Assembly: GCA_018820855.1 (NCBI GenBank)
Contig: JAHJNL010000044.1
Coordinates: forward strand, 78,808 to 136,136
Direction of reading: 5' to 3'
Source: Pseudomonadota bacterium
GTDB lineage: Bacteria; Desulfobacterota; Desulfobulbia; Desulfobulbales; Desulfocapsaceae
DNA: 57,329 nucleotides
The notes beneath the pieces are model-generated. The model saw nothing but the letters and a program-made list of their open reading frames with translations, made no database searches and was not told the DNA's origin. Positions 34,863-52,947 of this stretch are shown piece by piece; position 1 is the first letter of the stretch, and each line of letters starts with the position of its first letter. The translations under genes were made by a program, and so were the position numbers.

Positions 34863-35207
34863 ATGAAACAATTTGTTCGTGTTATGAAGGCCCTGTCCGA
34901 TCCCAATCGAGTCAGGATCATTAAGATGCTTGGTGTTAAAGAACTCTGCGTTTGTGAGTTGCAGGATTTAATCGGGCTGGCTCAATCGACAGTCTCCAAG
35001 CACCTGAAAGTGTTGGAAGAGGCTGGTCTGGTTGACTACCGCAAGGAAGGTTCCTGGTTTATTTATCGGCTGACCAAAGGTGAAGAGTCGGACTATGCGA
35101 GAGTGATGCTCAAAAACCTCAAAAGCTGGCTTGTTGATGAGCCGCAGTTGCAGGAAATGATGGCCAGGCTGCCTCAGATCGACAGGGAGCGAAGCTGTGC
35201 AGCATGA
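34863..35207 (+). CDS. ArsR-family metal(loid)-responsive repressor
   Basis: 114 aa winged-helix repressor. The ELCVCEL motif in helix 3 is the classical ArsR metalloid-binding cysteine pair, and QSTVSKHLKVLEEAGLV is the DNA-reading helix, followed by the beta wing (RKEGSWFIYRL). Binding of As(III), Sb(III) or another thiophilic metal would release it from the operator just upstream. It leads a same-strand run: permease, two thioredoxin-like proteins, CcdA-like protein. The CxC motif argues for a soft-metal or metalloid inducer. Confidence 0.93.
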   Translation: MKQFVRVMKALSDPNRVRIIKMLGVKELCVCELQDLIGLAQSTVSKHLKVLEEAGLVDYRKEGSWFIYRLTKGEESDYARVMLKNLKSWLVDEPQLQEMMARLPQIDRERSCAA

Positions 35208-35240
35208 TTTGAATGGAAGGGCGTTTAAGGAATACTACTT

Positions 35241-36338
35241 ATGGAACCAATAAAATCAATAAAGAACTGTGCTGATGGTGGTGATTGTTGTGACGTCAGT
35301 ACCGGTGCAAACAAAAGAAAAATGACAGCGCAACAGTTGGGCCTTGGCCTGCTTGGCCTTACCACCTGGTATATAGTCTATACACAGCTGCTTCCTTTCT
35401 CCCATTATTTTTCCTATGGCCTGTTTGGTTTCGAAAAGGGCAGCCATCTGGGTGAGGCAATACAGTTCTTTGCCTATGATACTCCCAAGGTTATGATGCT
35501 TCTCACCCTTATTGTCTTTGTGGTTGGGATGTTGCGCTCTTTTTTTACTCAGGAGCGAACCCGGAAAGTTCTGGCAGGTAAACGGGAGACTGCAGGTAAT
35601 GTAATGGCCGCTTTGCTTGGTATCGTCACACCGTTCTGTTCCTGTTCTGCCGTGCCGCTTTTCCTCGGATTTGTCCAGGCGGGAGTGCCATTGGGCGTGA
35701 CTTTTTCATTTCTCATTGCAGCACCCATGGTCAATGAGATTGCCCTGGTTCTGTTGTACGGTCTTTTAGGATGGAAGGTTGCCGCGATTTATCTGGGGAC
35801 AGGACTCGCCATTGCCATGGGGGCAGGTTGGGTTATTGGTCGATTGAAACTTGAACACCTTATTGAAGACTGGGTTCAGGAACTGCGGGCAGGTGCAGCT
35901 GTGGTGATTGAAGAAAAACTCAGTTGGGCCGATCGGATTGATCGTGGCTGGGAGGCCGTGCGTGATATCGTCGGCAAGGTATGGGTTTACGTGGTTGCAG
36001 GAATCGCTGTCGGAGCCATGATCCACGGTTATGTGCCGGAAACTTTTATGGCATCCGTCATGGGTAAAGATGCCTGGTGGTCAGTGCCTGTCGCTGTTGT
36101 GGTTGGTATCCCAATGTATTCCAATGCTGCTGGTATCGTGCCGGTGGTTGAGGCACTCCTTGGCAAAGGGGCAGCACTGGGCACAGTGCTGGCGTTTATG
36201 ATGAGTGTTATTGCTTTGTCTTTGCCGGAAATGGTTATTCTTCGGAAGGTCCTTAAGCCAAAATTGATAGCTGTCTTCATCGGAGTGGTCGGAGGCGGGA
36301 TCTTGTTTACCGGCTTTCTGTTTAACCTGATTATTTGA
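35241..36338 (+). CDS. COG0701/DUF318-family permease (ArsP-like)
   Basis: 365 aa with about eight to ten membrane segments. The family signature GIVTPFCSCSAVPLFLGFVQ and its repeat-like counterpart (GIPMYSNAAGIVPVVEALL) are present, as in ArsP-type and two-TM-repeat permeases. Some members export trivalent organoarsenicals or other metalloid compounds. The N-terminal soluble tail has CADGGDCCD, a possible metal-binding patch. Directly behind arsR (33 bp), so it is probably its regulatory target. The substrate is inferred, not shown. Confidence 0.85.
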   Translation: MEPIKSIKNCADGGDCCDVSTGANKRKMTAQQLGLGLLGLTTWYIVYTQLLPFSHYFSYGLFGFEKGSHLGEAIQFFAYDTPKVMMLLTLIVFVVGMLRSFFTQERTRKVLAGKRETAGNVMAALLGIVTPFCSCSAVPLFLGFVQAGVPLGVTFSFLIAAPMVNEIALVLLYGLLGWKVAAIYLGTGLAIAMGAGWVIGRLKLEHLIEDWVQELRAGAAVVIEEKLSWADRIDRGWEAVRDIVGKVWVYVVAGIAVGAMIHGYVPETFMASVMGKDAWWSVPVAVVVGIPMYSNAAGIVPVVEALLGKGAALGTVLAFMMSVIALSLPEMVILRKVLKPKLIAVFIGVVGGGILFTGFLFNLII

Positions 36339-36396
36339 ATCTGTTTCCTTACAGGTTAGTTTTATTTTATACATAATAAAAAAAGAGGAAGAAAAC

Positions 36397-36630
36397 ATGG
36401 AGATTAAAGTATGCGGACCGGGATGTGCCTCTTGTGAAAAAACACAAAAAATTGTTGAGGCTGCTGTTGCTGCAAAAGGTGTTGACGTGACAATCAGCAA
36501 AATTACAGATTTTCAGGAAATTGCCAGATTGGGTATTTTTTCAACCCCGGCTGTAATCATTGACGGTGAGGTGAAATGCATAGGAAATATCCCAAAGCAG
36601 TCAGAGGTCGAAAGCTGGTTGAAATCATAA
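36397..36630 (+). CDS. Small thioredoxin-like protein (TM0996/MTH895 type)
   Basis: 77 aa single-domain thioredoxin fold starting MEIKVCGPGCASCEK, with the redox pair C12/C15 in a CASC motif, and STPAVIIDGEV supplying the cis-proline. These small redox proteins are found next to COG0701 permeases in many anaerobes and archaea. GAGGAAG precedes the ATG. Confidence 0.9.
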   Translation: MEIKVCGPGCASCEKTQKIVEAAVAAKGVDVTISKITDFQEIARLGIFSTPAVIIDGEVKCIGNIPKQSEVESWLKS

Positions 36631-36763
36631 GAACAACAGGATGCTGTTTGAATTGCCAATAGTGGTAGACTTGTTTCTACTTGTCCGTGTTGCTCTCCAG
36701 TTTGTGCCAAAATATTAATGTTTGAAATTGGTGACTAACTCCACATTTAAAGGAAGTGATACT

Positions 36764-37150
36764 ATGTTGTATCGTTATCTCTATAAAAGTATTTTTTCGG
36801 TTTTGTTGCTTGTCATTCTGCTTTTGATGTCCTTTACGGCCCAGGCCGCAGAAGAGAATGAAATCCCAAGAAAAAACATGGTAACCATGGTGGACCTCGG
36901 GGCCGACAAATGTGTTCCCTGTAAATTAATGGCTCCGATTCTTAAGAAGTTGGAATCCGAGTATAATGGGAAAGCCGCCATTGTTTTTCTCGATGTATGG
37001 AAAAATCCTGATCAGGCCAAAGAATATGGGATAAGGGTTATTCCCACCCAGATTTTCTTTGATAAAGCTGGCAAAGAGATATCTCGCCATGTCGGTTTTA
37101 TGGACGAACAAGCAATCAGAAAACAGCTCGATATGTTACTTGCAATCTAA
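36764..37150 (+). CDS. Periplasmic thioredoxin
   Basis: 128 aa from the ATG at 36764 (AAAGGAAG upstream). A signal peptide spans about 1-27, with hydrophobic core VLLLVILLLMSFTAQA and cleavage after AQA. The mature thioredoxin domain has active site DKCVPCKLMAP and cis-proline VIPTQIFF. It is probably kept reduced by the CcdA-like protein encoded next. Confidence 0.9.
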   Translation: MLYRYLYKSIFSVLLLVILLLMSFTAQAAEENEIPRKNMVTMVDLGADKCVPCKLMAPILKKLESEYNGKAAIVFLDVWKNPDQAKEYGIRVIPTQIFFDKAGKEISRHVGFMDEQAIRKQLDMLLAI

Positions 37151-37278
37151 GGGTTGCGAGTTGGCAATGCAGTTTTCCGTGAGTTGTGTCCGCATCTTAT
37201 TTTTCTGCGGATTTTTCAGGCGCTACTGCTTTCTGGTAATACTGTATGAGAACCGTTGATCTTTGATGGAGGGACTCT

Positions 37279-37986
37279 ATGCTTGATACTCTTTTTCTCG
37301 CCATTAACTCGTGGATGACAGGCGGACTTTTAGCTGCAGCCGTTGGCTGTTTCAGCTGGGGAATGGTCAGTGTCTTGTTCAGTCCCTGTCACATGGCATC
37401 CATCCCGCTTATTATAGGCTATGTGGGTGGACAGAACACAATCCTCAAGGGGCGGGATGCCATTCCCTATGCCCTGATTTTCACCAGTGGCCTTTTTATT
37501 ACCATCGCCATAATTGGTTTCGTCTGTGTCTTGCTGGGTCGGATGATGGGAGATGTAGGCCCGTATTGGACACTCCTGTTGGGAGCTCTTCTTTTATGGG
37601 TTGCCATGGATATGCTTGGAATTGCCAGCTGCAAGCTGCCTGGTAGCTCTTTACATAGGCTTCAAGTCAGGGGGCTTTCCGGAGCCTTTATTTTAGGACT
37701 TGCCTATGGTGTCCTCTCCGGCTCCTGTACCTTTGGCTTTATTGCGCCTATTCTTGCTATTATTACTGTCCAGAAACAAATCGTTTCCGGACTTTTTCTT
37801 CTTACCCTCTTTGCCCTCGGCCACTGTCTGCCTATTGCAGTGGCGGGTAGTTCGGCGACTACTGTCAAAAGACTGATCAATAATTCTACATTTCAGCACA
37901 GTGGCATCTGGTTCAGGAAAGGCGCGGGTATTTTGATAGGCAGCCTAGGAATATACTTTATTGCTCGTCCCTGGATAATCTTATAA
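37279..37986 (+). CDS. CcdA/DsbD-type transmembrane thiol-electron carrier
   Basis: 235 aa with six predicted membrane segments. The two redox cysteines typical of the family are present, one near SPCHMASIPL in the first helix and one in GVLSGSCTFGFIAP in the fourth. CcdA-like proteins carry reducing equivalents from cytoplasmic thioredoxin to periplasmic thioredoxins. The gene ends the arsR operon, so the operon encodes a thiol-reducing chain across the membrane, plausibly coupled to metalloid handling. GGAGGG precedes the ATG. Confidence 0.9.
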   Translation: MLDTLFLAINSWMTGGLLAAAVGCFSWGMVSVLFSPCHMASIPLIIGYVGGQNTILKGRDAIPYALIFTSGLFITIAIIGFVCVLLGRMMGDVGPYWTLLLGALLLWVAMDMLGIASCKLPGSSLHRLQVRGLSGAFILGLAYGVLSGSCTFGFIAPILAIITVQKQIVSGLFLLTLFALGHCLPIAVAGSSATTVKRLINNSTFQHSGIWFRKGAGILIGSLGIYFIARPWIIL

Positions 37987-38768: not shown

Positions 38769-38784
38769 TGGCACTTCTTTTGCT
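38769..38784 (+). promoter_or_regulatory. Sigma-54 (-24/-12) promoter upstream of LysW-like copy 1
   Basis: TGGCACTTCTTTTGCT: GG at 38770-38771 and GC at 38782-38783, exactly ten bases apart, near-perfect to the TGGCAC-N5-TTGCW consensus. Expected transcription start is near 38795, which leaves a leader of about 415 bases before the LysW-like gene at 39211. A 5-3-5 dyad (GTATG-TCA-CATAC, 38694-38706) sits about 95 bases upstream, where an activator could bind. Confidence 0.75.
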
Positions 38785-38987
38785 AAAAAAATTATTGGAT
38801 TCCAAGATTGCCTTGGATGTTATTTATGATGCCGCTTCCGGGCGACACCATAGGGTGTGCTGAAGGTTTGTTTTGGGCATGCTATAGCAGTTTGTTGTTT
38901 GCTCATATAACAAAAGGGCTGTGTGAAAAAGATAGTCAATATAATGTGTTGGGCTGTTGTTCTCTTGTTTGTAAGCTCAACCGGTTA

Positions 38988-39143
38988 ATGCCACTGGATG
39001 ATAAAAATAGTTCAATTGCAACAGAGCAGCAAGACTTGCAGGAAGAAAGGCAAGAGGCAAAAGAGAACGACGAAACAAGCACTCCGAAGCCTTACACGAC
39101 ATGGGAAAGTGAACGGCGAAATCATTTTCCAAGGGGGAGTTAA
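38988..39143 (+). CDS. Doubtful small hydrophilic ORF, 51 aa
   Basis: ATG at 38988, product MPLDDKNSSIATEQQ followed by a Glu/Gln/Lys-rich stretch, ending FPRGS. It lies in the leader of the sigma-54 transcript before LysW-like copy 1. No good ribosome-binding site and no recognised family, so it may be non-coding. A longer frame (from about 38826) continues upstream into this one. Confidence 0.25.
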   Translation: MPLDDKNSSIATEQQDLQEERQEAKENDETSTPKPYTTWESERRNHFPRGS

Positions 39144-39210
39144 CAGGAAAAATGATTGAGCAGGTCACCAGGGAAAAACAGTAACGGATAAGGATAAGGA
39201 TAAGAATACT

Positions 39211-39402
39211 ATGAAAATAAGAAAGTGCCCTGTCTGTATGGGGGAAATCATGGTTTCCTATGAAAATGAACCTGGCGATATAATTTTCTGTAGGGGCTGT
39301 GAACAAGGTTATGAACTTCGTTCTATCAAGCCAATACGTCTGACGCCATTAGATTTCAACGATGATTATGAGTTTGATGAAAATGCTTCTTCATATTTCT
39401 GA
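39211..39402 (+). CDS. LysW-like zinc-ribbon protein, copy 1
   Basis: 63 aa. Two CxxC knuckles, KCPVCMGE near 5-10 and IFCRGCEQG near 28-35, bracket a short strand region containing PGD. Then comes IKPIRLTPL, the position of the conserved P(L/V)RL of LysW-type amino-group carrier proteins, and an acidic tail DFNDDYEFDENASSYF. LysW proteins carry a growing amino acid on their C-terminal Glu (EDWGE motif); that motif is absent here and the tail ends Ser-Ser-Tyr-Phe. The family assignment is by motif only. A sigma-54 promoter lies 415 bases upstream. Confidence 0.7.
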   Translation: MKIRKCPVCMGEIMVSYENEPGDIIFCRGCEQGYELRSIKPIRLTPLDFNDDYEFDENASSYF

Positions 39403-39443
39403 TCTGCCGGTGAAGCTTATGATTTCGGCAAGCTGCGGAAGAA

Positions 39444-39599
39444 TTGTTGGCGCATGGTGGAATGCAGGGTGGCCTGAAGCTTTTCTGTAGTTCTGTCAAT
39501 ATCCATGGAATAGGTGTATATGCCGTAGAAGATATCCCGCTGTGGACTCTGGTGTGGCATTTTTACTCGTTTGTTATAGTGTCAAGGATAGGTGCAATA
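39444..39599 (+). pseudogene. Fragment of a SET-domain gene fused in frame ahead of LysW-like copy 2
   Basis: The open frame upstream of the LysW-like start reads KLFCSSVNIHGIGVYAVEDI and then WTLVWHF. This is the characteristic first strand-turn of SET methyltransferase domains (IHGxGVFA...DI...G..VW.F). Everything downstream of it in a SET domain (NHS and DYG motifs) is missing. A complete SET gene lies at 50320-50934. I read it as the remnant of a second SET gene whose 3' part was lost. Confidence 0.55.
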
Positions 39600-39857
39600 A
39601 TGATTGAGAAAGAAAGAAAGGAAATGTGCAGTAGAAAAAGGAGCGGACGATTCGAGCATCATCTCCGGAGCTGCACAATTTGCGGAAGCGCTAACGGGCT
39701 TGAAATTTTCAGCCATCATCAGAAAAACGATATTATTTTCTGTGAGGTTTGCGGGGTGAAATACTCGTTGCAGAGTATAGAACCGGTCAGGCTACGTTGC
39801 CTCGAGCCTCAAGCAGCGCATGATGCTGCCTGGGTGGAGAAGTATTCATCATACTGA
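39600..39857 (+). CDS. LysW-like zinc-ribbon protein, copy 2
   Basis: 85 aa from the ATG at 39600, with AGGATAGG about ten bases upstream. A basic N-terminal extension of about 30 residues (ERKEMCSRKRSGRFEHHL) precedes two CxxC knuckles (SCTICGS and FCEVCGVKY), then the shared QSIEPVRLRCLE. The tail is HDAAWVEKYSSY, again with a terminal Tyr. The second knuckle is the best match to a LysW zinc ribbon. The frame continues upstream into a SET-like fragment without a stop, so a longer fused product from about 39444 cannot be excluded. Confidence 0.65.
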   Translation: MIEKERKEMCSRKRSGRFEHHLRSCTICGSANGLEIFSHHQKNDIIFCEVCGVKYSLQSIEPVRLRCLEPQAAHDAAWVEKYSSY

Positions 39858-39942
39858 AGATAATAGTGCTCAGCCGAGAGACAGTGTTGGTGATTGTCTT
39901 AATTCCCTTTCCCTTCAGGTGCTGGTATTCCATGCGTAACGG

Positions 39943-40209
39943 CTAACAACAAATTGAATCCGTTTCTTGAGGAGAAACCGGCCGAAAACATGTGACCAGT
40001 ATTGTCTTTTCTTGGGCTTCGCTCTTCAGTAGGCCGCTGATCTCGATTTTCCGGCGAAGCATGGACATAAGCTCTTCTTCTTGGTTGGTGTAGGTGAGTA
40101 CATATTTCTTTTCGTCATTTGTGAAAAGAGCGAGGCCTGATATTTCTCCATTCCCTTTCCATTGATCTGGAACAAGAACTCCTACAATAGTGATTTCTCC
40201 CTGATCCAT
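39943..40209 (-). CDS. Small conserved protein, beta-rich (OB-fold-like), 88 aa
   Basis: Start at the ATG at 40209, with AAAGGTG upstream; an in-frame GTG at 40221 is the alternative. The pattern (TIVGVLVPDQWKGNGEISGL, LFTNDEKKYVLTY, then RRKIEISGLLKSEAQEKTIL) alternates short strands and looks like a small OB-fold or beta-barrel protein. No family name can be given. It is on the opposite strand to LysW-like copies 1 and 2, between copies 2 and 3. Confidence 0.65.
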   Translation of the reverse strand: MDQGEITIVGVLVPDQWKGNGEISGLALFTNDEKKYVLTYTNQEEELMSMLRRKIEISGLLKSEAQEKTILVTCFRPVSPQETDSICC

Positions 40210-40289
40210 CACTGCTTTCACCTTTTTTTATCACAAATTGAATGGCACAGGATGGAGGGAGGGTGAATGAATGCTAGCAGGAAGGGCGG

Positions 40290-40325
40290 CACCGGCAGGC
40301 TGGCCCGAAGACCCGCCTGCCGGTG
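40290..40325. repeat. Perfect inverted repeat downstream of LysW-like copy 3
   Basis: CACCGGCAGGC (40290-40300) and GCCTGCCGGTG (40315-40325), an 11-bp GC-rich stem. No T-run on either side, so it is more likely an mRNA 3' stabiliser than an intrinsic terminator. Confidence 0.6.
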
Positions 40326-40368
40326 TATGCCTTGCATCTGATGAGGTTTTAATTAACATCAGCACCTT

Positions 40369-40551
40369 CTAATATTCATCCTCTTCAAAATAATAATCAT
40401 CACATACTTCCAGGGCTTCCAGGCGGACAGGGTTCAGGGAAAGTAGTCGGAATTCCCGTTCGCATTCATCACAGAAAACATCATCACCCACTTCATGGTC
40501 ATGATAAATTCTTATTCCCCCTCCGCATACAGCACATCTTTGTGTTTTCAT
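40369..40551 (-). CDS. LysW-like zinc-ribbon protein, copy 3
   Basis: 60 aa. Knuckles RCAVCGGG and FCDECEREF, then LSLNPVRLEALEV and a strongly acidic tail CDDYYFEEDEY. This is the copy closest in length and layout to LysW (about 55 aa), but the last residues are Asp-Glu-Tyr instead of the carrier Glu of EDWGE. TTGAGGA precedes the ATG at 40551. A sigma-54 promoter lies about 50 bases upstream, so the leader is about 40 bases. Divergent from the first sigma-54 activator (40839). Confidence 0.75.
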   Translation of the reverse strand: MKTQRCAVCGGGIRIYHDHEVGDDVFCDECEREFRLLSLNPVRLEALEVCDDYYFEEDEY

Positions 40552-40599
40552 ATTGATTCCTCAAAAAAATAGTAAGTTGTAAAACCTCACATTTTCCAT

Positions 40600-40615
40600 A
40601 GCATATTTTGTGCCA
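40600..40615 (-). promoter_or_regulatory. Sigma-54 promoter of LysW-like copy 3
   Basis: Minus-strand TGGCACAAAATATGCT (40615 to 40600): GG and GC are ten bases apart, the -24 element TGGCAC is perfect. Expected start of transcription near 40590. Confidence 0.7.
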
Positions 40616-40669
40616 TATGCAGAAGATCCCGTTTTGTCTAGGTCTACGTTTGTTGGTTGATGCATAATA

Positions 40670-40684
40670 GGAACTTGTAGTTCC
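40670..40684. promoter_or_regulatory. Dyad, possible activator-binding site
   Basis: GGAACT-TGT-AGTTCC, a perfect palindrome with a 3-base centre, located about 80-95 bases upstream of the inferred start of LysW-like copy 3. That is where enhancer-binding proteins bind. It is also upstream of the activator gene at 40839. Confidence 0.45.
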
Positions 40685-40838
40685 ATTTTTTTGTTGTTCG
40701 CTGGGGTGTCAAGGTGTATAGGGGAAATAAGTTATGGTTGGATAGCTTGAGAAGAAAAGGAAATAGCTATTCAGAACTTCTGGTTCCTCAATTTTAAAAA
40801 GCGGAATCAGTAATTCTCTTATTTGTGAAAGAGGGATT

Positions 40839-42239
40839 GTGAGAAATATCCTGGTAATAAGTCGTGTTCGTGCCGTGTTGGCAACTTTCCAGGAAAGTTG
40901 CTCTACGGATGATAAAATATCGGTGGTTTCTTCTTTGGCGGAGGCACTTGATACTTTGAAAAACTATCGGAGTGATTTGGTCTTCATCGATATGAATATC
41001 CTCCAGTTGTCGGCGGGTTCAAGTGCTTATAAAGTTGTCTTGCAACCTTTTTGGTTGCTTTATCCGACTCTTAAAGTTGTGGTAATGACAAGCCAGGCAA
41101 TGCTTCGAGAAGCTGTGGCGGCTGTAAAGCAGGGGGCTAGTGATTACATTATGTACCCCGTTATTGCAGATGAAATACGGCTGATTACCAGCAACCTGAT
41201 TGAGGCGCAAAAGGTTCAGTCCGAGTTGGACTATTTACGTGACCAGTTTTGGGATAAGGATTCGGTCCCCTTTCTGCGGACAAAATCTTCGGCTATGCAG
41301 CAGGTTTTTGCAAATGTCCGCTCTGTTGCACCGACCAAAAGTACAGTCCTTCTCACCGGTGAGACAGGAACGGGTAAAGGTGTGCTGGCTAAGATTATCC
41401 ACAAGCACAGCAGTCGAAAAGATGAACAGTTTATCAGTGTGCACTGCGGGGCCATTCCGGATACATTGTTGGAAAGTGAACTCTTCGGTCACGAGAAAGG
41501 TGCCTTTACCGGGGCCGTGAAACGAAAACTGGGCAAGTTTGAAATTGCCAATGGCGGCACCATATTCCTGGATGAGATTGGGACCATAACTCCTGCGGCG
41601 CAAATCAAATTATTACAGGTGTTGCAGGAAGGCGTGTTTCAGCGTATTGGCGGTGATGATGATACCAAGATAGATGTACGCATTATTGCCGCTACCAATG
41701 AGGATCTCAAGCAACTCTGTGAAGAGAAACAATTTCGCAACGATCTCTATTACCGGTTGAATGTCTTTCCCATTGAATTGCCGCCACTCAGGAATCGTAA
41801 AGAAGATATCCCCGGACTTGTTGAGGTGTTTATCCAGCAGCTTAATCGTTTCCATAGTAAGGATATTTCTGACATTCATCCTCAGGTTATCGATGCCTTT
41901 TTGCATTATTCCTGGCCTGGTAATATTCGCGAGTTGGAAAATATCATGGAAAGGGCCTATATCCTTGAAAGAGCAGCTGTCCTTGTTCCTGAAAGTTTTC
42001 CTGCTGAGTTGTTTGTCACTGAAGACATTCTGACCCGAGTGCAGATGGACACCTTGCTACCGCTTGCAGAGGTGCGCAGAAGAGGTGTTGAAGAGATAGA
42101 ACGCTGTTATCTCAAAGAGGTCTTGGATAAGTATTGCGGGAAGATCAAGACAAGCGCTGAAGCCGCTGGCATTACCACTAGGCAGCTTCATAAGTTGATG
42201 AAGAAGTATGGCCTGAAAAAGGAAGAATTCAAGACATGA
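40839..42239 (+). CDS. Sigma-54-dependent activator with degenerate receiver domain (1)
   Basis: 466 aa, GTG start with AGAGGG upstream. Receiver-like domain 1-120: the phosphoacceptor-like Asp51 (LVFIDMNI) is kept, but the usual Asp pair after strand 1 is replaced by SRV and the conserved Lys before Pro107 is Tyr106, so normal phosphorylation is doubtful. AAA+ domain about 145-380 with Walker A GETGTGKG (174-181), GAFTGA (221-226, the sigma-54 contact) and Walker [11 protein letters not shown]. Fis-type helix-turn-helix at the end (TSAEAAGITTRQLHKLMKKY). No histidine kinase is linked. It is divergent from LysW-like copy 3, whose promoter is of the sigma-54 type. Confidence 0.92.
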   Translation: MRNILVISRVRAVLATFQESCSTDDKISVVSSLAEALDTLKNYRSDLVFIDMNILQLSAGSSAYKVVLQPFWLLYPTLKVVVMTSQAMLREAVAAVKQGASDYIMYPVIADEIRLITSNLIEAQKVQSELDYLRDQFWDKDSVPFLRTKSSAMQQVFANVRSVAPTKSTVLLTGETGTGKGVLAKIIHKHSSRKDEQFISVHCGAIPDTLLESELFGHEKGAFTGAVKRKLGKFEIANGGTIFLDEIGTITPAAQIKLLQVLQEGVFQRIGGDDDTKIDVRIIAATNEDLKQLCEEKQFRNDLYYRLNVFPIELPPLRNRKEDIPGLVEVFIQQLNRFHSKDISDIHPQVIDAFLHYSWPGNIRELENIMERAYILERAAVLVPESFPAELFVTEDILTRVQMDTLLPLAEVRRRGVEEIERCYLKEVLDKYCGKIKTSAEAAGITTRQLHKLMKKYGLKKEEFKT

Positions 42240-42318
42240 CGTCTTCTTTTTTATGAAAACCCATGCATGGTTGTGAGGCAGGTTGGCGAGCTGTATGGTT
42301 TTATTATCAGGACCAGTT

Positions 42319-42353
42319 TGTTGAAGACATGTGGCCGCTCCATGTCTTCAACA
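42319..42353. repeat. Perfect inverted repeat between convergent genes
   Basis: TGTTGAAGACATG (42319-42331) and CATGTCTTCAACA (42341-42353), 13-bp stem, 9-base loop. It lies between the converging activator and speB. No T-run on either side, but probably a shared transcription or mRNA end. Confidence 0.6.
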
Positions 42354-42376
42354 GGAGGATCAAACTGTGATGGCGC

Positions 42377-43231
42377 TTACAGTGCATTACGCAGTATCAT
42401 GCTCAATGACCGATAGATAAGCTTTGCTGCAAGGAAGTCGGGAGCTCGGTTGTGTTGCTGAGGCAACAGCTCCACAACATCAATGCCGATAACCCTTTTC
42501 TCCGTAGCCACCTGCCGGATAATCGAATTGAGCATGTACCAGTCAATGCCGCCGGGTTCTGGCGTACCGGTGGATGACATATAGGAAGGATCAAGGACAT
42601 CCAGGTCAATTGTGATATAGACAGTATCGCTCAATAAATCCAGTGCATCAACTGCTGCATTCATACCGTGCAAATGCAAATCACGGGCCAGAACCAAGCG
42701 GTCAGGGTTCACATTCTTCAGCTCTGTCTTGTCCATACTGCGGATACCTACCTGGACAGATTTGCACATTTCGTTGATTCTGGCCATGACGCAGGCGTGA
42801 TTATAGGGGCTGCCCTGGTAAGTGTCGCGCAGATCGGTATGGGCATCCAACTGCAGGACGCTCAAGTCGGGGTATTGTTCCAGGGCGGCCTGAACCAGAC
42901 CAACGGTAACCGAGTGTTCACCACCCAGGCCGACGACTAGTTTTTTGTCACGGAAAAGAGGGATGGCCTGCCGTCGCACCTCGGCAACCATCTCTTCCGG
43001 AGCCTCGGGGCATTCTACGGGATTAAGGGTGCAAATGCCGTGGCGGTATACCTCTGTCCCGGTTTCTATATCGTACCACTCAAGATTTATGGAGGCCTCC
43101 AGCAATGCCTGGGGTCCACGGTCAGCTCCCTTCATCCAGGTTGAGGTGGCGTCGTAAGGTATGGGAAGTACAACAACCTTTGATTTTTCGTACCCTGTGT
43201 ATTTCTCAGGAATGTCGGTGAATTTAATCAA
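42377..43231 (-). CDS. speB: Agmatinase (agmatine ureohydrolase)
   Basis: 284 aa. Hydrolyses agmatine to putrescine and urea with a two-manganese centre. Metal ligands are in VGLGGEHSVTVG, LQLDAHTDLRD and YITIDLDVLDPSYMSST. TTG is the only start that fits and it has GAGG eight bases upstream. Together with SpeA it makes putrescine from arginine. LysW-like copy 4 lies just upstream on the same strand (64 bp), so the two may be cotranscribed. Confidence 0.92.
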   Translation of the reverse strand: MIKFTDIPEKYTGYEKSKVVVLPIPYDATSTWMKGADRGPQALLEASINLEWYDIETGTEVYRHGICTLNPVECPEAPEEMVAEVRRQAIPLFRDKKLVVGLGGEHSVTVGLVQAALEQYPDLSVLQLDAHTDLRDTYQGSPYNHACVMARINEMCKSVQVGIRSMDKTELKNVNPDRLVLARDLHLHGMNAAVDALDLLSDTVYITIDLDVLDPSYMSSTGTPEPGGIDWYMLNSIIRQVATEKRVIGIDVVELLPQQHNRAPDFLAAKLIYRSLSMILRNAL

Positions 43232-43295
43232 ATTTAATGCCTCTGTAACACCATGTTTTAATGCTCAACGTAAAAGTTTATCTTTTGGATTGCGC

Positions 43296-43556
43296 TCAAT
43301 CGTAGTCCTGGGCGTCGTCGTCGTCCTCGTAAAATAGATTGTCTGTATCCACGTATTCATCATCGTCCTCATACTCTTCTTCAAGGATAACCAAGCGAAC
43401 GGGATTGCGTGATTTGACAATATACTCAGCTCCACACTCGTCACAGCAGAGCATATCACCCCGGTCCACATAAAACGCCAGAGGAATATCACCCTCGCAG
43501 GCCTCACATGGAACAACCCTTTCTTCTTCTTCATATTGTTTGCTTCTCTTGCCCAT
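43296..43556 (-). CDS. LysW-like zinc-ribbon protein, copy 4 (long acidic tail)
   Basis: 86 aa. Knuckles VPCEACEGD and LCCDECGAEY, then SRNPVRLVILEEE. The tail is about 30 residues, almost all Asp, Glu and Tyr, ending DDDDAQDYD. This is the highest acidity of the group. GGAGGAA lies upstream of the ATG. It is the first gene of a putative unit with speB. The tail may mimic nucleic acid or carry a conjugated group; this is speculation. No sigma-54 promoter was found before this copy. Confidence 0.75.
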   Translation of the reverse strand: MGKRSKQYEEEERVVPCEACEGDIPLAFYVDRGDMLCCDECGAEYIVKSRNPVRLVILEEEYEDDDEYVDTDNLFYEDDDDAQDYD

Positions 43557-43718
43557 CTGGTGTTCCTCCGATTGATTCTAACATGCGGTTAATTTCAGCA
43601 GCTCTATTCATTTGTGCTGAAGGAATAATATCGATATCTTCTATGACTGTGTCGTTGATTTAGCAGATGACATTCTCTTCACTGTCAGTGTTTCCAGCCT
43701 GATATCTATAAAAAAGGA

Positions 43719-43859
43719 TTAATAATAGTGGATAACGCCTTGTACAGGACATACTGCAATATACCCCTCGTCACAGCAGGCGACATCACCCTGATTCAGA
43801 TAAAATTCCATGGTAATGTCAGCGCCACAGAAATAACACATCTTGCAGGATCCCCTCAT
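43719..43859 (-). CDS. LysW-like protein, copy 5, decayed (one zinc-knuckle Cys pair lost)
   Basis: 46 aa from the ATG at 43859 (GGAGACAAG upstream); the in-frame ATG at 43904 is too close to the inferred transcription start. First knuckle CYFCGAD is intact, as is FYLNQGDVACCDE. Nucleotide alignment with copy 4 shows a 9-base in-frame deletion right after that (TGT-GGA-GCT missing), which removes one zinc-ligand Cys, then GYIAVCPVQGVIHYY where copy 4 has the PVRLV segment. A sigma-54 promoter is intact. It is either a decaying paralogue or a variant with a different metal site. Confidence 0.5.
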   Translation of the reverse strand: MRGSCKMCYFCGADITMEFYLNQGDVACCDEGYIAVCPVQGVIHYY

Positions 43860-43921
43860 CTTGTCTCCGATAAACAGCTGGTCGGCTAATAGGGCATGCT
43901 GCAATGCGTTGTCTGCCTCAT

Positions 43922-43937
43922 AGCATTTGTCGTGCCA
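43922..43937 (-). promoter_or_regulatory. Sigma-54 promoter of LysW-like copy 5
   Basis: Minus-strand TGGCACGACAAATGCT (43937 to 43922). The -24 element TGGCACG is perfect and GG-N10-GC spacing is exact. Expected start near 43911, about 52 bases before the ATG at 43859. Confidence 0.75.
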
Positions 43938-44069: not shown

Positions 44070-45518
44070 CTATTGCAGCGGTATTTCAGTTTTAGTTCCG
44101 ATCGGAACTTGTCTTTCCGAATGACGGTAATCTTCCTTGCGTAACCCGTAGATGCGCATTTTGTTATACAGGGCACGGGCACTGAGTCCGGCAAAGCGCG
44201 CCGATTCACCAATGCGGCCGCGGGTGTACTTCAGCAGTTGGATAAGGTATTGCCGTTCGGCAGACTGAATTTGCATCGATTTGTAAGCTTTCAGGGTAAT
44301 GCCTGGTTGAAAGGCCCACTCACCAGATCTTTCCTGCATTACAAGTTGAGGGAGTGGCAGATGGGGGACATGGATAAGCTCTGGGCCGATTTCCTCACTG
44401 TCTGCCATCAGGAGAGCCCGTTCAATAACATTCTGCAGTTCTCTGACATTTCCGGGCCAAGGTGCCTCAGAGAGAAGTCGCATGGCAGCATGACTGATGG
44501 TCTTGACATAATCACGATGCTGCGGTTTTTTCCTGTTGAGAAAATGTGTTGCCAAAAGAGGAAGATCTTCCCGGCGTCTTCTCAGGGGTGGTATGTGCAC
44601 CGGAAAAACAGCCAATCGATAATAGAGATCCGAGCGCAGACGACCGGATTCAAGAAGCTCGGTCGGGTCGGTATTAGTGGCGGCAATCAGGCGGAAATCC
44701 GTGTGTATCTCTTTGTTGCCCCCAAGACGTTGCAATGATTTCTCCTGTAACACACGGAGCAGGCGTACCTGCATGGCCTCGGACATGGATTCCAGTTCGT
44801 CAAGGAAGAGGGTTCCGCCTGAGGCATGCTCGATTTTTCCGATACGCTGAAAAAGTGCCCCGGAAAATGCGCCCTTTTCGTGGCCGAAAAGCTCACTCTC
44901 GAGAAGTGAATCAGGGAGGGCACCGCAATTAAAGGCCATGAACGGACCTTTGCTGCGTTTTGAAATGTTATGGATGATGCCTGCCACTACTTCTTTGCCG
45001 GTACCTGTCTCGCCATTGAGAAGAACCGTGGAATCGGTGGGACCAATATCTTTGATCTGATCCACCACCTGTCCCATGAGTCCGTTACCGGTGACCAGTA
45101 CTTCGAGGCCGGGCGGATGCCGCATGTAACCCTGGAGAAAACGTGCCTTATCAGCTGCCTGCCGGGAACGGTAGGCTGAGACAAGATGTTTGAAAAGCTT
45201 TTCCTCATTCAGCTGTCTGTCAATCACTGTCACATGAGGATGGATTGCTGCCAATGATTTGTATCGTTTGGCAGTTGTTGCAGATACCATGAAAAATATC
45301 AGAGAGCCATCTCCTTCGTCACACAGTCTTGCAGGTTTTATCCCGGAATTATCCATGGCCTCTGTGTCGATGAGCAGGATGTCATGAAATCTTGACAGGG
45401 CTGTCGGGGCAAGAGGGGCCGGTGGCACAGCCTGAAATATCCGGCCACCGATACGGAAGATATTGACTCGAAACTGCTCACTGAGTTCAATTAAACTGTA
45501 GAAAAAAATATTGAGCAT
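44070..45518 (-). CDS. Sigma-54-dependent activator with highly divergent N-terminal domain (2)
   Basis: 482 aa from the ATG at 45518; the longer frame upstream has no ribosome-binding site. The N-terminal 130 residues are only faintly receiver-like (HDILLIDTEAM) with no acidic pair or conserved Lys. The AAA+ core has Walker A GETGTGKE (169-176). The sigma-54 contact loop reads GAFSGA (216-221) instead of GAFTGA. The arginine fingers and a Fis-type helix-turn-helix (GRIGESARFAGLSARALYNK) are present. The T-to-S change in the loop is rare and may alter activity. No kinase is linked. Confidence 0.9.
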   Translation of the reverse strand: MLNIFFYSLIELSEQFRVNIFRIGGRIFQAVPPAPLAPTALSRFHDILLIDTEAMDNSGIKPARLCDEGDGSLIFFMVSATTAKRYKSLAAIHPHVTVIDRQLNEEKLFKHLVSAYRSRQAADKARFLQGYMRHPPGLEVLVTGNGLMGQVVDQIKDIGPTDSTVLLNGETGTGKEVVAGIIHNISKRSKGPFMAFNCGALPDSLLESELFGHEKGAFSGALFQRIGKIEHASGGTLFLDELESMSEAMQVRLLRVLQEKSLQRLGGNKEIHTDFRLIAATNTDPTELLESGRLRSDLYYRLAVFPVHIPPLRRRREDLPLLATHFLNRKKPQHRDYVKTISHAAMRLLSEAPWPGNVRELQNVIERALLMADSEEIGPELIHVPHLPLPQLVMQERSGEWAFQPGITLKAYKSMQIQSAERQYLIQLLKYTRGRIGESARFAGLSARALYNKMRIYGLRKEDYRHSERQVPIGTKTEIPLQ

Positions 45519-45742
45519 TTGTGTTCTGGTCTCCAAAAACAGTACTATCTTTTTCCATGAAAACCGACATTGAAACAGACCAATATGATAAAAAGCCTGA
45601 TACCACACTCCCGGTTGCTATGCACGATTATTTTGTCATTGTTGGTCACCATAAAAAACAGGGGGGAGCGTCTTGTGTCTAGACCGGTCTTGGCTGTTCT
45701 TATCTGGTTGTCAGATTGCTTGACAGACGTAGGGGGCCTCAG

Positions 45743-46879
45743 TTAGGAAAGCCTGGATTTGAAATCTTCATAGCCGAATGTTCTGATAATTTTTAGTTCA
45801 TCATGCCTGTACAGGGCAATGGACGGGAGACGAACACCATTGAAGGTGGTTGTTTTTACCATGGTGTAGTGCGCCATATCGGTAAACACCAACTTGTCGC
45901 CGATTGTCAGCGGTATGTCAAAGGAGTAATCTCCGATAACATCTCCTGCCAGGCAGCTTATGCCGCCAAGGCGGCAGGTATACGGTTTTTCTCCCGGTTC
46001 CCCTGCGCCAAGAATCACCGGTCGGTATGGCATCTCCAGGACATCGGGCAGATGGGTTGCCGCTGATGCATCCAGGATGGCGATATCCATACCGTTGTTG
46101 ACGACATCAAGGACTGTGGTAACGAATATTCCGGCATTAAGGGCAACTGCTTCACCTGGTTCAAGGTAGACGGTGACTCCGTACTTCTGCGCAAAGGCAT
46201 TGATCAGTCGACAGAGATGATCGACGTCATAGTCCGCGCGGGTAATGTGATGGCCACCACCGAAATTCACCCACTGCATGGCGTGGAGATATTCTCCGAA
46301 ATTTTTTTCAACTGCCTGCAGTGTGCGTTCCAGGGCAAAGGAGTCCTGTTCGCAGAGGGTGTGAAAATGGAGGCCTGAGATACCGGTCAGATCGACTCCG
46401 ACCAGATCTTTTTTGCAGATACCCAGGCGTGATCCGGGAGTGCATGGATCGTAAAGGGCTGTCTTGGTTTCTGAGTGTTCCGGATTGATGCGCAGGCCGT
46501 AGCGAATGGTAGCACTGTATTCGGCACAGAGGGACCTGAATCGTTGCCACTGGTTAATGGAGTTGAAAACCACGTGGTTGCTGAGCGGGAGTATCTGAGT
46601 GATGCTTTCCAGGCTGTATGCAGGTGAAAAGGTGTGGACTTCGCCGCCGAACTCTTCCCGGCCCAACAAGGCCTCGTCAATCGAGCTGGCACAGGTTCCG
46701 GCAAGCACCTTTTTCAGAAGAGGAAAAACACTGAACATGGCAAAACCCTTGAGGGCCAGCAGGATCTTTGCTCCGGTGCGCTGCTGTACCACATCAAGAA
46801 TTGCCAGATTCCGTTCAAGGGCATGCCAGTCAACAATAAAACAGGGTGACGGTACCTTGGTCAAATCAAGAGTGCTCAT
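45743..46879 (-). CDS. nspC: Carboxynorspermidine/carboxyspermidine decarboxylase
   Basis: 378 aa, PLP enzyme of the alanine-racemase fold that decarboxylates carboxyspermidine to spermidine in the pathway that uses aspartate semialdehyde instead of decarboxylated SAM. PLP-binding Lys lies in ILLALKGFAMFSV, the phosphate-binding part in WVNFGGGHHIT, and the C-terminal LGGISCLAGDVIGDY supplies the Cys/Asp of the second domain. The ATG at 46879 has AGGGCGAG; an upstream GTG at 46897 would overlap the previous stop codon by four bases (GTGA), so it is a second option. Transcribed with the next gene. Confidence 0.92.
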   Translation of the reverse strand: MSTLDLTKVPSPCFIVDWHALERNLAILDVVQQRTGAKILLALKGFAMFSVFPLLKKVLAGTCASSIDEALLGREEFGGEVHTFSPAYSLESITQILPLSNHVVFNSINQWQRFRSLCAEYSATIRYGLRINPEHSETKTALYDPCTPGSRLGICKKDLVGVDLTGISGLHFHTLCEQDSFALERTLQAVEKNFGEYLHAMQWVNFGGGHHITRADYDVDHLCRLINAFAQKYGVTVYLEPGEAVALNAGIFVTTVLDVVNNGMDIAILDASAATHLPDVLEMPYRPVILGAGEPGEKPYTCRLGGISCLAGDVIGDYSFDIPLTIGDKLVFTDMAHYTMVKTTTFNGVRLPSIALYRHDELKIIRTFGYEDFKSRLS

Positions 46880-46893
46880 CTCGCCCTGAACAA

Positions 46894-48093
46894 TCACAGC
46901 TTCATGTCCTCCAGGTCTCCGGCAAATTCCACCCAGGGCAGACCATGAAGGTTTAACTGCTCCATGAAAGGCTCCGGATCAAACTGCTCCATGTTAAAGA
47001 CCCCCTGACCCTGCCATTTGCCGGTCAGTATCATCATGGCCCCGATCATGGCCGGAACCCCGGTGGTATATGACACAGCCTGGGACCCCACTTCTTGGTA
47101 ACACTGTTCGTGGTCACAGATATTGTAAATGTAGCAGCTCTTCTCTTTGCCGTCCTTGATGCCGCTGATCAGGCAGCCGATGCAGGTGCGCCCTTTGGTC
47201 AGTGGGCCGAGAGACCCCGGATCAGGCAGGAGTGCCTTGAGAAACTGCAGGGGGACAATCTCCTGTCCCTGAAAGTTGATCGGTTCGATACTTGTCATAC
47301 CGATTCCCTCAAGCACTTTGAGATGGTTAAGGTAGTTGTCTGAAAAGGTCATCCAGAAGCGGCCCCGTTGAATCTCGGGGATGTGCTTTACCAGCGATTC
47401 CATCTCTTCATGATGGAGAAGGTATATTTTGCGTGGCCCGATGCCTTCAGGAAAGTCAAAGATTCTTGACTGGCTCAGCGGATCGGTCTCCTGCCACTGG
47501 CCATTCTCATAAAATTTGCCGCGCTGAGTTACTTCCCTGATATTGATTTCAGGATTGAAATTGGTAGCAAACGGCTGACCATGCTCACCGGCGTTGCAGT
47601 CGATTATATCCAGGGTTCGGATTTCGTCGAAACGGTTTTTCCTGGCCCATGCAGTAAAGACATTAGTTACCCCCGGGTCAAACCCAGACCCGAGCAGGGC
47701 CATAATCCCTTTCTCCTTGAAGCGGTCATGGTAGTCCCATTGCCATTTGTAACAGAATTTTGCCTCGTCCGGTGGCTCGTAGTTTGCAGTGTCGAGATAA
47801 TTCGTCCCTGTTTCCAGGCACGCATCCATGATGTGCAGATCCTGGTAAGGCAGCGCCACATTGATAACCAGATCCGCCTGAAAGTCATTGATGAGACTGA
47901 CCAGTTCCGGCACATTGTCGGCATCGACCTGCTCTGTCCTGATGGGCCGTTTGATCTGGGCGGCAATCTGTTCACACTTGGCAACGGTGCGGCTGGCCAG
48001 GCAGATATCGGTAAACACTTCAGGAACCTGAGCGCATTTGTGGGCAACAACCGAGCCGACTCCGCCGGCACCTATGATTAAAACACGTGACAT
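46894..48093 (-). CDS. Carboxynorspermidine/carboxyspermidine synthase (saccharopine-dehydrogenase-like)
   Basis: 399 aa NADPH-dependent enzyme that condenses putrescine (or diaminopropane) with aspartate semialdehyde to give carboxyspermidine. The Rossmann start VLIIGAGGVGSVVAHKCAQ is clear, followed by the fold shared with saccharopine dehydrogenase (LGSGFDPGVTNVFTAWA, TTGVPAMIGAMM). Its neighbours identify it as the polyamine enzyme and not lysine biosynthetic saccharopine dehydrogenase: decarboxylase downstream, speA upstream. Overlaps or abuts the decarboxylase start, so the pair is translationally coupled. Confidence 0.92.
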   Translation of the reverse strand: MSRVLIIGAGGVGSVVAHKCAQVPEVFTDICLASRTVAKCEQIAAQIKRPIRTEQVDADNVPELVSLINDFQADLVINVALPYQDLHIMDACLETGTNYLDTANYEPPDEAKFCYKWQWDYHDRFKEKGIMALLGSGFDPGVTNVFTAWARKNRFDEIRTLDIIDCNAGEHGQPFATNFNPEINIREVTQRGKFYENGQWQETDPLSQSRIFDFPEGIGPRKIYLLHHEEMESLVKHIPEIQRGRFWMTFSDNYLNHLKVLEGIGMTSIEPINFQGQEIVPLQFLKALLPDPGSLGPLTKGRTCIGCLISGIKDGKEKSCYIYNICDHEQCYQEVGSQAVSYTTGVPAMIGAMMILTGKWQGQGVFNMEQFDPEPFMEQLNLHGLPWVEFAGDLEDMKL

Positions 48094-48114: not shown

Positions 48115-50037
48115 CTATTCTTTTTCAAAGTAGGTATAGCCTTGCAATCCCTCGTTAAAATGACGAAGGATCTGTCTGCGTTCTTGCACGGTAATGAAGC
48201 CCTTACGGATGGAGTCTTCCGCAAAATCCTTCATCCGTTTTTTGATCGCCTTTATGTCGTACTCCACATAGTCGAGCACATCTGCCACTGAATCGCCTTC
48301 GAGTTCACGGACGAAATCATAGGAGCCGTCTTCGTGCACATGAATAGAGACCACATTGGTGTCACCAAAGAGGTTGTGCAGGTCACCTAGAGTTTCCTGG
48401 TATGCACCAACCAGAAAAACTCCCAGGTAGTAGTCTTCTCCCGCTTTCAGGTTGTGCAGATGGATTGTCTCCCTGGTATGAGGGTAAGCTGGAAATGTAT
48501 CAATTCTTCCATCACAGTCGCAGGTAATGTCGGCAATTATTGCGGTTCTGGGCGGATCTTCATTCAGACGATGTATGGGCATGACCGGAAAAAGCTGATC
48601 TATTGCCCATACATCAGGCATGGATTGGAACAGACTGAAATTCCCATAGTAGACATCTGCTATCAGCTTTTCGATTTCCGCTAATTCGCTGGGAGGATGC
48701 TCAAGTTCAGCCATTACCGCGGCAATCTTGAGAAGAATGTGCTTGAGCAGATCATCGGCTAGTGCTCGTTCCCGAAGTGTTATGTGGCCGTGTTTAAAAA
48801 GCTGCTGAGCTTGGCTCTTGTAGAAAAGGGTGTCATTGTAGCACTCCTGGAAGTCCTTGGCAGAGATCCTTGTATAGGTCTCCATGAGGTTGTCGAGCAG
48901 GTCATAGGTCGTCTTCGGCAACTCCTTGGGAATTGGGTTTGGAGTTGCCGTGGTAACATCCAGGATGTTGAAGAGAAGGACCGAATAATAGGCCACTGTG
49001 GCACGGCCGGATTCGGTTATGATTGTCGGATGATCAATATTAGCTTTGTCCAGCACAGATGCGATGGTCTCAACGATATCATAGCAATACTCCTCAACAG
49101 AATAATTGCGACTGGATGGATGATTTGTTTTGGAACCGTCGTAATCGACGGCAAGTCCGCCGCCTAGATCGAGGTGGCCCATTGCTGCGCCTTCTTTCAC
49201 CAGCTCCTCGTATATTCGGCACGCCTCCAGTACACCTGCACGAATATCCTGGATATTAGGAATCTGGGAGCCGATATGGTAATGCAGCAGTTGCAGGCAG
49301 TCGAGCTTGTCATCCTTTTTTAAGCGATCAATGACATCGATAACCTGACTCATGTTCAGACCGAAGACACTGGTTTCGCCTCCTGATTCCGCCCAGAGTC
49401 CGTCGGCTCGGGTGGACAGCTTTATGCGCAAGCCAAGGAGTGGGCGCACGCCAATCTTCTTGGCCCGCTTAAGGATCAGGTCAAGTTCGTCAGGCATTTC
49501 CAGAACAAAGAAACAGCGCAAACCCATTTTTGTTGCGTACAAGCCAAGATCAATGAACTCTTCATCCTTATAGCCATTGCAGACCAGGCAGGCTTCACGG
49601 TTCTTCAGCATGGAAATGGCAGCGATCAGTTCTGGCTTGCTGCCGGCTTCAAGACCATGGTTGTACTTTTCACCAAACTGGGTGATAGCCTCTATTACCT
49701 GCTCCTGCTGGTTGACCTTGATCGGAAAGACCCCCTTGAACACACCTTTATAGCCAATCTCTTCCATGACCTTGGCAAAGGTGGTATGCAGCCTTTTGAT
49801 CTGTGAACCGAGGATGTTCTCGATACGCAACAGAACAGGCATGGCCAGGCCGCGATCTTCAATGCCCCTGGCAACCTCATGAAGACTAACTCTTGGCCCG
49901 TTGTCCCCGCCTGAGGGAGTGATAACGACATCTCCGTTGGGATCTACTCCAAAATAGCCGGCACCCCATTTTTTGATACCGTACAGGTTTGCGGCATCAT
50001 CCACAGTCCAGTTTTTATTTTTACCGGTAATGCTCAT
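48115..50037 (-). CDS. speA: Biosynthetic arginine decarboxylase
   Basis: 640 aa, PLP-dependent enzyme that converts arginine to agmatine. The SpeA fold of the alanine-racemase type is seen: the PLP Lys is in VFPIKVNQQEQVIEA, substrate-loop and phosphate sites in LHYHIGSQIPNIQDI and HLDLGGGLAVDYDGSK, and the C-terminal ADITCDCDGRID gives the second-domain Cys. It is followed by the carboxynorspermidine synthase gene after 21 bp. The window thus has a complete arginine to agmatine to putrescine to spermidine route (speA, speB, then the carboxyspermidine pair). Confidence 0.96.
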   Translation of the reverse strand: MSITGKNKNWTVDDAANLYGIKKWGAGYFGVDPNGDVVITPSGGDNGPRVSLHEVARGIEDRGLAMPVLLRIENILGSQIKRLHTTFAKVMEEIGYKGVFKGVFPIKVNQQEQVIEAITQFGEKYNHGLEAGSKPELIAAISMLKNREACLVCNGYKDEEFIDLGLYATKMGLRCFFVLEMPDELDLILKRAKKIGVRPLLGLRIKLSTRADGLWAESGGETSVFGLNMSQVIDVIDRLKKDDKLDCLQLLHYHIGSQIPNIQDIRAGVLEACRIYEELVKEGAAMGHLDLGGGLAVDYDGSKTNHPSSRNYSVEEYCYDIVETIASVLDKANIDHPTIITESGRATVAYYSVLLFNILDVTTATPNPIPKELPKTTYDLLDNLMETYTRISAKDFQECYNDTLFYKSQAQQLFKHGHITLRERALADDLLKHILLKIAAVMAELEHPPSELAEIEKLIADVYYGNFSLFQSMPDVWAIDQLFPVMPIHRLNEDPPRTAIIADITCDCDGRIDTFPAYPHTRETIHLHNLKAGEDYYLGVFLVGAYQETLGDLHNLFGDTNVVSIHVHEDGSYDFVRELEGDSVADVLDYVEYDIKAIKKRMKDFAEDSIRKGFITVQERRQILRHFNEGLQGYTYFEKE

Positions 50038-51395: not shown

Positions 51396-51401
51396 CTGCT
51401 C

Positions 51402-52904: not shown

Positions 52905-52919
52905 GATTGTATATTATAA

Positions 52920-52947
52920 ATGCATGCGGAGGTGTCTCCGCATGCAT
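52920..52947. repeat. Perfect hairpin between citrate synthase and the ATP-grasp operon
   Basis: ATGCATGCGGAG (52920-52931), loop GTGT, CTCCGCATGCAT (52936-52947): a perfect 12-bp stem. On the minus strand it is followed by TTTATAATAT, a weak T-rich tail. It lies just before the ATP-grasp start codon. It may be a leaky terminator of gltA or a translational control element. Confidence 0.75.

Follow-up and report, generated by a model that had tools for sequence, protein, structure and literature searches.

LysW-like zinc-ribbon proteins encoded among sigma-54 promoter-like sites and polyamine genes in a Desulfocapsaceae genome

The known proteins with the LysW fold are covalent carriers, employed chiefly in lysine and arginine synthesis. 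The LysW/ArgW carrier (PF21344; TIGR01206; PDB 3wwl, 3vpb, 5k2m and 5eio) has a double-CxxC zinc ribbon, a P-x-x-L hinge and an aromatic residue near the end of its tail. Here we describe a family of small proteins with the same features, represented by the ribbons R1 to R4 and a decayed copy, R5, in a stretch of 57,329 nucleotides (hereafter the window) from contig JAHJNL010000044.1 of a bacterium of the Desulfocapsaceae. As with LysW/ArgW, some relatives of the ribbons are encoded near ATP-grasp ligases. Unlike LysW/ArgW, the ribbons have neither the EDWGE ending nor a fixed terminal Glu, no LysX scoring above its cut-off was found in their genome, and their genes occur as several paralogues accompanied by sigma-54 promoter-like sites, activators and polyamine genes.

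Other described systems come close in single respects (below, L, G and C numbers denote fetched loci, genomes and contigs). According to the available sections of one paper, RimB takes off glutamates that have been added to S6 by RimK, and its authors consider C-terminal poly-alpha-L-glutamylation to be so far confined to S6 (PMC11957791). This cycle is like the ribbon loci in joining a ligase-protease pair to an acidic C-terminal tail, and both genes lie near acidic-tailed ribbons in L051, L054, L066 and L069; it differs in that its substrate is S6, no LysW-fold protein being mentioned in those sections (PMC11957791). RloA/RloC is reported to be a related pair of protease and ATP-grasp enzyme connected with osmotic stress (PMC12239564), and RimK is said to have a highly diverse genetic context (PMC10092738). 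LysW-like amino-group carrier proteins (AmCPs) are reported from encapsulin natural-product clusters (PMC8346489), which resemble the ribbons in lying beyond primary lysine/arginine synthesis; the encapsulins, sulfotransferases, nonribosomal peptide synthetases and polyketide synthases given there were not recognised among the identified ribbon neighbours. The MATCAP/TMCP tubulin carboxypeptidases (PMC10499314) come close in that an FGase-MATCAP gene adjoins ribbons in G006, G018 and G008; the eukaryotic enzyme differs in having tubulin as its substrate. No report linking LysW-like proteins with polyamine or sigma-54 genes was found in the open-licence literature searched.

In the window, R1 (39211 to 39402, plus strand, group B; 63 aa, ending ASSYF) and R2 (39600 to 39857, plus strand, group C; 85 aa, ending KYSSY) are followed on the minus strand by R3 (40369 to 40551, group A; 60 aa, ending FEEDEY), R4 (43296 to 43556, group D; 86 aa with a long acidic tail) and R5 (43719 to 43859; 46 aa counted from its ATG). 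Against PF21344 (cut-off 27 bits), R1, R3 and R4 scored 30.4, 27.5 and 28.1 bits, respectively, and R2, with 15.8 bits, fell under the cut-off. A preliminary description of this DNA had proposed five copies at these positions, sharing one frame of two CxxC pairs, PxRL and acidic tail. All five are present, and the alignment bears out the frame for R1 to R4, which have in common both CxxC pairs, the D ahead of the second pair and S-xx-P-x-R-L-xx-L (C6, C9, D23, C27, C30, S38, P41, R43, L44, L47 and D52 in R3 numbering) as well as a C-terminal Tyr column. The frame does not extend to every tail, which is clearly acidic in R1, R3 and R4 and mildly so at most in R2, nor to R5, which retains only the first CxxC and, besides the second pair whose loss had already been pointed out, lacks PxRL and the tail; compared by eye with R4, R5 appears to carry a short in-frame deletion. 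Purine-rich stretches resembling ribosome-binding sites precede the starts of R3 and R4.

When the 4.82-Mb genome was searched with the A2 profile at E <=0.001, the matches were the four intact ribbons and a stop-containing fragment on contig C13, with no others; since the rest of the genome yields only this fragment, the clustering of the ribbons is not due to chance. Among 16 orthologue pairs of R1 to R3, 7 gave no usable dS; in the other 9 omega was 0.08 to 0.23, which indicates that R1 to R3 are constrained proteins.

The ribbons contain a globular domain of the LysW zinc-ribbon type. After VIA-align was applied to 286 Foldseek-ranked chains, the top five structural matches of the predicted R3 model were all LysW and stood clearly above the next folds. 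The predicted LysW-like fold of the ribbons is thus supported, a generic zinc ribbon was rejected, and the likeness to LysW that had been suspected proved specific in profile as well as structure comparison. With the NCBIfam models, R1 to R4 scored 19.8-30.8 bits for lysW (cut-off 53.2) and 17.2-26.2 bits for carrier_LysW_Arch (cut-off 75), none reaching either cut-off, and R5 gave no match. An EDWGE end, already said to be missing from the copies in the window, was found in 0 of 44 family members, whose last residues are D (21), Y (11), F, E, N, G and I (2 each), A (1) and K (1). In the window's genome the best match to the LysX/ArgX model TIGR02144 was the RimK gene with 133.5 bits, which does not reach the cut-off of 275.6. 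Genuine LysW genes bearing EDWGE were found separately by the same searches in the relatives L046, L080 and L081, the copy in L081 lying beside a LysX above cut-off, and their recovery is a positive control. These genuine LysW rows form a clade of their own in the tree (98/90), with L076 neighbouring (81/78).

The tail statistics cover 43 members, leaving out the LysW rows L046, L080 and L081, the fragment L048, the weak L039 and L047, and the short ribbons L078, L079 and L082; R5 is counted among the 44 members and not among the 43. The last 15 residues are about 41% acidic and 4% basic. An aromatic residue lies within the last four positions in 40 of the 43, against a mean of 26.5 and a maximum of 35 when the last 15 residues of each tail were shuffled in 2000 trials, and the extreme C-terminus is thus positionally constrained. 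LysW has a comparable aromatic residue, W at -3; the last residue of the ribbons differs between groups, and that of group A closes the motif FEED[ED]Y in 5 of 5.

The sigma-54 (-24/-12) promoter pattern TGGCACN6TGCW has exactly three matches in the 57 kb against 0.30 expected, all of them at the ribbon cluster and each directed at ribbons. The first, TGGCACTTCTTTTGCT (38769 to 38784, plus strand), lies upstream of R1-R2 with a leader of 426 nt; the second, TGGCACAAAATATGCT (40600 to 40615, minus strand), is 48 bp upstream of R3; and the third, TGGCACGACAAATGCT (43922 to 43937, minus strand), is 62 nt upstream of R5 and 365 nt upstream of R4. The limits first drawn around the ribbon family, 38769 and 43937, coincide with the positions of two of these sites. 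A looser pattern gave two extra sites, at 12492 and at 54184; the latter, TGGCATTTTATTTGCT (54184 to 54199, minus strand), is 52 nt upstream of a citrate synthase-RLAN-GNAT-SET run. Among relatives, R1-like copies have a site at the equivalent upstream place in L051 (7602) and L054 (8564) and nearer in L056 (11861), the R3-like copies in L052, L053, L055 and L056 have one 46-62 bp upstream, and in L057, L066 and L058 the polyamine run has sites ahead of its speA or CANSDH end. When 350 bp of each of 41 upstream regions, one of which belongs to the true LysW of L046, were compared with plain base shuffles, 13 gave p <=0.05, including every group A ribbon; R1, R2 and R4 showed no significance in this test (p 0.56, 0.95 and 0.24, respectively), because their exact sites lie beyond the scanned 350 bp. 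Read by eye, the best TGGCAY-type site is 42-81 bp from the predicted start in 15 of the 41 regions. R3, with a -24/-12 site near its start and an activator nearby, is predicted to be sigma-54-dependent; the sites of R1-R2 and R5-R4 lie farther upstream.

Two sigma-54 activators are encoded among the ribbons and polyamine genes. EBP-1 (40839 to 42239, plus strand) is divergent from R3 and has a GAFTGA motif and a degenerate receiver domain; EBP-2 is encoded at 44070 to 45608 on the minus strand. Activators were compared among the fetched loci, nearly all chosen for ribbons, and in these a sigma-54 activator is the commonest ribbon neighbour. EBP-1 orthologues are 82% identical in L052, L053 and L056 and about 70% (from 69.7%) in L057, L058 and L066, with polyamine genes in 5 of these 6 loci; EBP-2 orthologues (49-55% identity) adjoin group D ribbons in L037, L040, L042, L059, L060, L061 and L068. 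Receiver domains usually carry a conserved Lys-Pro. In its place the EBP-1 receiver has an invariant Tyr-Pro, and EBP-1 is therefore perhaps no ordinary phosphorylated regulator.

The polyamine genes of the window are all on the minus strand. That for agmatinase (42377 to 43231; TIGR01230 229.7 bits, cut-off 174.3) has its predicted start 64 nt downstream of R4 and is followed by those for carboxynorspermidine decarboxylase NspC (45743 to 46897; TIGR01047 508.1 bits, cut-off 409.05), a carboxynorspermidine synthase-like protein (CANSDH; 46894 to 48093; 433.8 bits, under the equivalog cut-off of 800) and the biosynthetic arginine decarboxylase SpeA (48115 to 50037). In gene maps built from open frames and BLAST families rather than curated genes, where a run means neighbouring same-strand frames, a ribbon stands in one run with most of these four genes in L052, L053, L055, L057 and L066 and near some polyamine genes in L041, L045, L050, L058 and L063. 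Matches were obtained in 28 of 115 genomes, of which G094 (true LysW) and G102 and G027 (weak, unrelated) were discounted, leaving 25 ribbon genomes. The nspC gene is present in 20 of these 25 and in 39 of the 90 others (p 0.001; this and the following co-occurrence p-values ignore kinship, and four ribbon genomes belong to one genus), and it lies <=10 kb from a ribbon in 8 of the 20, against 0.13 expected, in five genera and three families. The association with polyamine genes, claimed earlier for this locus, is real and is seen in several families. The window's genome also has a second, divergent NspC-like gene (L083, G000:C20:5930-7042), which is under the family cut-off.

The five copies had been regarded as divergent and scattered. 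They are present, as said above; in the tree, which has few columns and many open forks and does not include R5, they fall into groups that are found again in sister genomes. The R3 clade has 5 rows (98/93), with four copies from three sister genomes; R2 forms a group C clade with L051_8322, L054_9324 and L056_12406 (97/97); R1 shares with copies of L051, L054 and L056 an unstarred fork (82/90) that also contains group C; and R4 pairs with L056_8474 (88/94, unstarred). In G008 (L056), five ribbons and EBP-1 occupy one 4.5-kb stretch in the order first ribbon, R4-like, EBP-1, R3-like, R1-like and R2-like, followed by MscS and RimK. The first ribbon (8190-8453) is complete and matches R5 by position, not by the tree, its own place there being unsure; we infer that a five-ribbon set is common to the two species and that R5 decayed in the window's genome. 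The fragment on contig C13 of this genome (G000; L048, 7836-8033) is a broken R2-like ribbon between RimB and FGase-MATCAP, a place taken by R1/R2-like genes in G006 and G018. Many relatives have one ribbon per genome. A scan of genome contigs gave one relative, a plasmid scan no clear one (4 records, E 0.09), and in a sample of the phylum the matches (44 of 395) were a mixture of strong ribbons and weak matches, some of these being true LysW.

A 92-aa protein encoded at 39943-40221 (minus strand), with no significant Pfam or NCBIfam match, recurs close to ribbons and polyamine genes in L052, L053, L057, L058 and L066. At the place equivalent to the long R1-R2 leader (38785-39210), L051 and L054 have an open frame resembling a small secreted acidic protein, which by eye looks decayed in the window.

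Had homologues never been found near ligases, the preliminary description would have given up its proposal; some are near ATP-grasp ligases. RimK (>190 bits) is present in 11 of the 25 ribbon genomes and 7 of the 90 others (p 8e-5) and lies <=10 kb from a ribbon in 5 of the 11, against 0.07 expected; RimB is present in 10 of 25 and 14 of 90 (p 0.011), and was not found in G008, which has RimK in L056. An RLAN-RimK-like ATP-grasp ligase (51402 to 52904, minus strand) lies in the citrate synthase-RLAN-GNAT-SET run of the window (50320-55992), together with a third, divergent sigma-54 activator (54547-55992). Of the 25 ribbon genomes 11 have a close RLAN orthologue, as do 3 of the 90 others; among 12 loci with such an orthologue all four run genes are found in 9 and the divergent activator in 4. 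A strict sigma-54 site precedes the run in 1 of the 12 (G006; L084 6847) and was not found directly upstream of it in G008 (L055), and co-regulation of the run by sigma-54 everywhere was rejected, since the site is confined to the window and that one locus. In L042 and L069 the distance between a group D ribbon and a fusion of a Ddl-like ligase and M20 peptidase is 0.77 kb and 1.85 kb, respectively; in G031 fusion and ribbon are far apart. Of the five ribbons adjoining FGase-MATCAP in G006, G018 and G008, four end in Tyr or Phe. In genus g1, MATCAP is present in exactly the 4 of 20 genomes with ribbons, next to them in 3 and next to the broken fragment in G000. In a phylum sample of 297 MATCAP was found in the window's own genome only, in G029 it is on a different contig from the ribbon, and G021 has MATCAP and no ribbon match; because these genomes and the plasmid loci described below fail to show the link, it belongs to one lineage, and MATCAP was rejected as a general partner.

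MscS-type channel genes also recur near ribbons (L048, L051, L054, L056, L069 and L075), joined in L048, L051 and L069 by both a CorA and a DUF5698 gene and in L054 and L056 by either one; these neighbours hint at an osmotic or ion-balance setting.

The computations thus give a LysW-type double-CxxC ribbon whose tail, acidic for the most part, has a constrained terminal aromatic, promoter-like sites of the sigma-54 type with activators close by, an association with the genes leading from agmatine to spermidine and, in some lineages, an association with ATP-grasp amide ligases and peptidases. Tentatively, and at somewhat less than even chances, we read the ribbons as a family of carriers or acceptors with the LysW fold, induced through sigma-54 and serving polyamine metabolism. 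A nitrogen or polyamine signal would free EBP-1 or EBP-2, and ribbons would then be produced along with SpeA, agmatinase, CANSDH and NspC. Each ribbon could dock, in the manner of LysW, to an ATP-grasp enzyme that differs by lineage (RimK, RLAN, Ddl-like or GSH-synthetase-like), its flexible tail being the acceptor of an amide-linked amino acid or amine, and the cargo might later be taken off by the partner peptidase (RimB, M20 domain or MATCAP); the paralogues would be acceptors for different partners. If so, a branch with several paralogues, retaining the fold after loss of the EDWGE acceptor and now placed in a sigma-54/polyamine setting, would broaden the roles of the LysW fold, and the nearby ligases (RLAN-RimK, Ddl-M20) would gain a candidate substrate. 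The ribbons are a conserved LysW-fold family, apparently under different control and tied to polyamine-making and peptide-bond-forming genes, and may have a new carrier job. Of the carrier or tagging family proposed initially, the LysW-like fold and the polyamine setting have stood; the carrier or tagging function itself is unproved. Neither an EDWGE tail nor a LysX above cut-off was found, and many single-copy relatives adjoin a sigma-54 activator and lack a recognised ligase within the fetched stretch.

Several results count against the carrier reading. Since the terminal residue varies among the 44 members, a LysW-like Glu acceptor cannot be general, and the R2 tail is hardly acidic. To our knowledge, the established polyamine steps require no carrier. 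The co-occurrence tests overstate independence, given the neglect of kinship and the genus shared by four ribbon genomes. RimK is within 10 kb of a ribbon in only 3 genera (g1, g11 and g23), and the window's own genome has RimK/RimB on a different contig, C13, from R1 to R5. As judged by eye, most of the 20 genomes inspected have an S6 tail rich in Glu/Asp, whether or not RimK is present; as S6 is a known substrate with such a tail, RimK needs no ribbon, and an action of RimK on ribbons only was rejected on the same S6 tails. Two of the 5 genomes with a full-length Ddl-M20 fusion (G035 and G043) have no ribbon match, and in many cases a single-copy group D ribbon is accompanied by an activator, with no ligase recognised in the stretch fetched. 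Ribbons are absent from 4 of 4 plasmid MATCAP loci (Vibrio, two of Photobacterium, Shinella), where the best weak match (E 0.019) has one CxxC. Set against this, the fold, the tail and the neighbouring ligases and hydrolases incline us, with reserve, to a carrier.

It is a serious, if somewhat doubtful, possibility that the ribbon is instead a small non-covalent effector, expressed from a sigma-54 promoter, whose binding to a polyamine enzyme, in the way of an antizyme, or to the adjoining activator would complete a feedback loop, the acidic tail mimicking or binding polycations. The prevalence of activators as neighbours, with EBP-2 orthologues immediately adjoining group D ribbons in seven of the loci fetched and EBP-1 orthologues present in six, the Tyr replacing the generally conserved Lys in the degenerate EBP-1 receiver, and the ribbons within the polyamine runs of L057 and L066 agree with such an effector; yet the activators were compared within loci fetched for ribbons, and an effector alone explains neither the LysW fold nor the positionally constrained C-terminus nor the ATP-grasp neighbours. 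The sole measurable difference between carrier and effector is a covalent load on the tail. We consider it unlikely that the ribbons merely buffer zinc or polyamine, as small acidic-tailed proteins storing Zn or binding spermidine: the two CxxC pairs and the acidic composition of the last 15 residues would suit a buffer, but the purifying selection on R1 to R3, the single ribbon per genome in many relatives and the LysW-specific fold matches suit a specific partner better. Improbable as well is a bacterial analogue of the tubulin tail code, in which the ribbons would be dedicated substrates: ATP-grasp ligases would lengthen their acidic-aromatic tails, a MATCAP-type carboxypeptidase and RimB would cut them back, and the result would be a reversible C-terminal signal tuning polyamine synthesis under sigma-54 control. 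That the ribbons are ordinary LysW/ArgW amino-group carriers of the lysine or arginine pathway is very improbable and was rejected, in spite of the fold and PF21344 matches, on the missing EDWGE tail, the lysW scores, the want of a LysX above cut-off and the separate occurrence of genuine LysW in relatives.

Farther upstream in the window, at 34863-37986, genes for an ArsR-type regulator, a SaoE/ArsP-like permease, a thioredoxin and a DsbD-like protein adjoin one another, and this row is perhaps a metal or arsenic efflux cassette.

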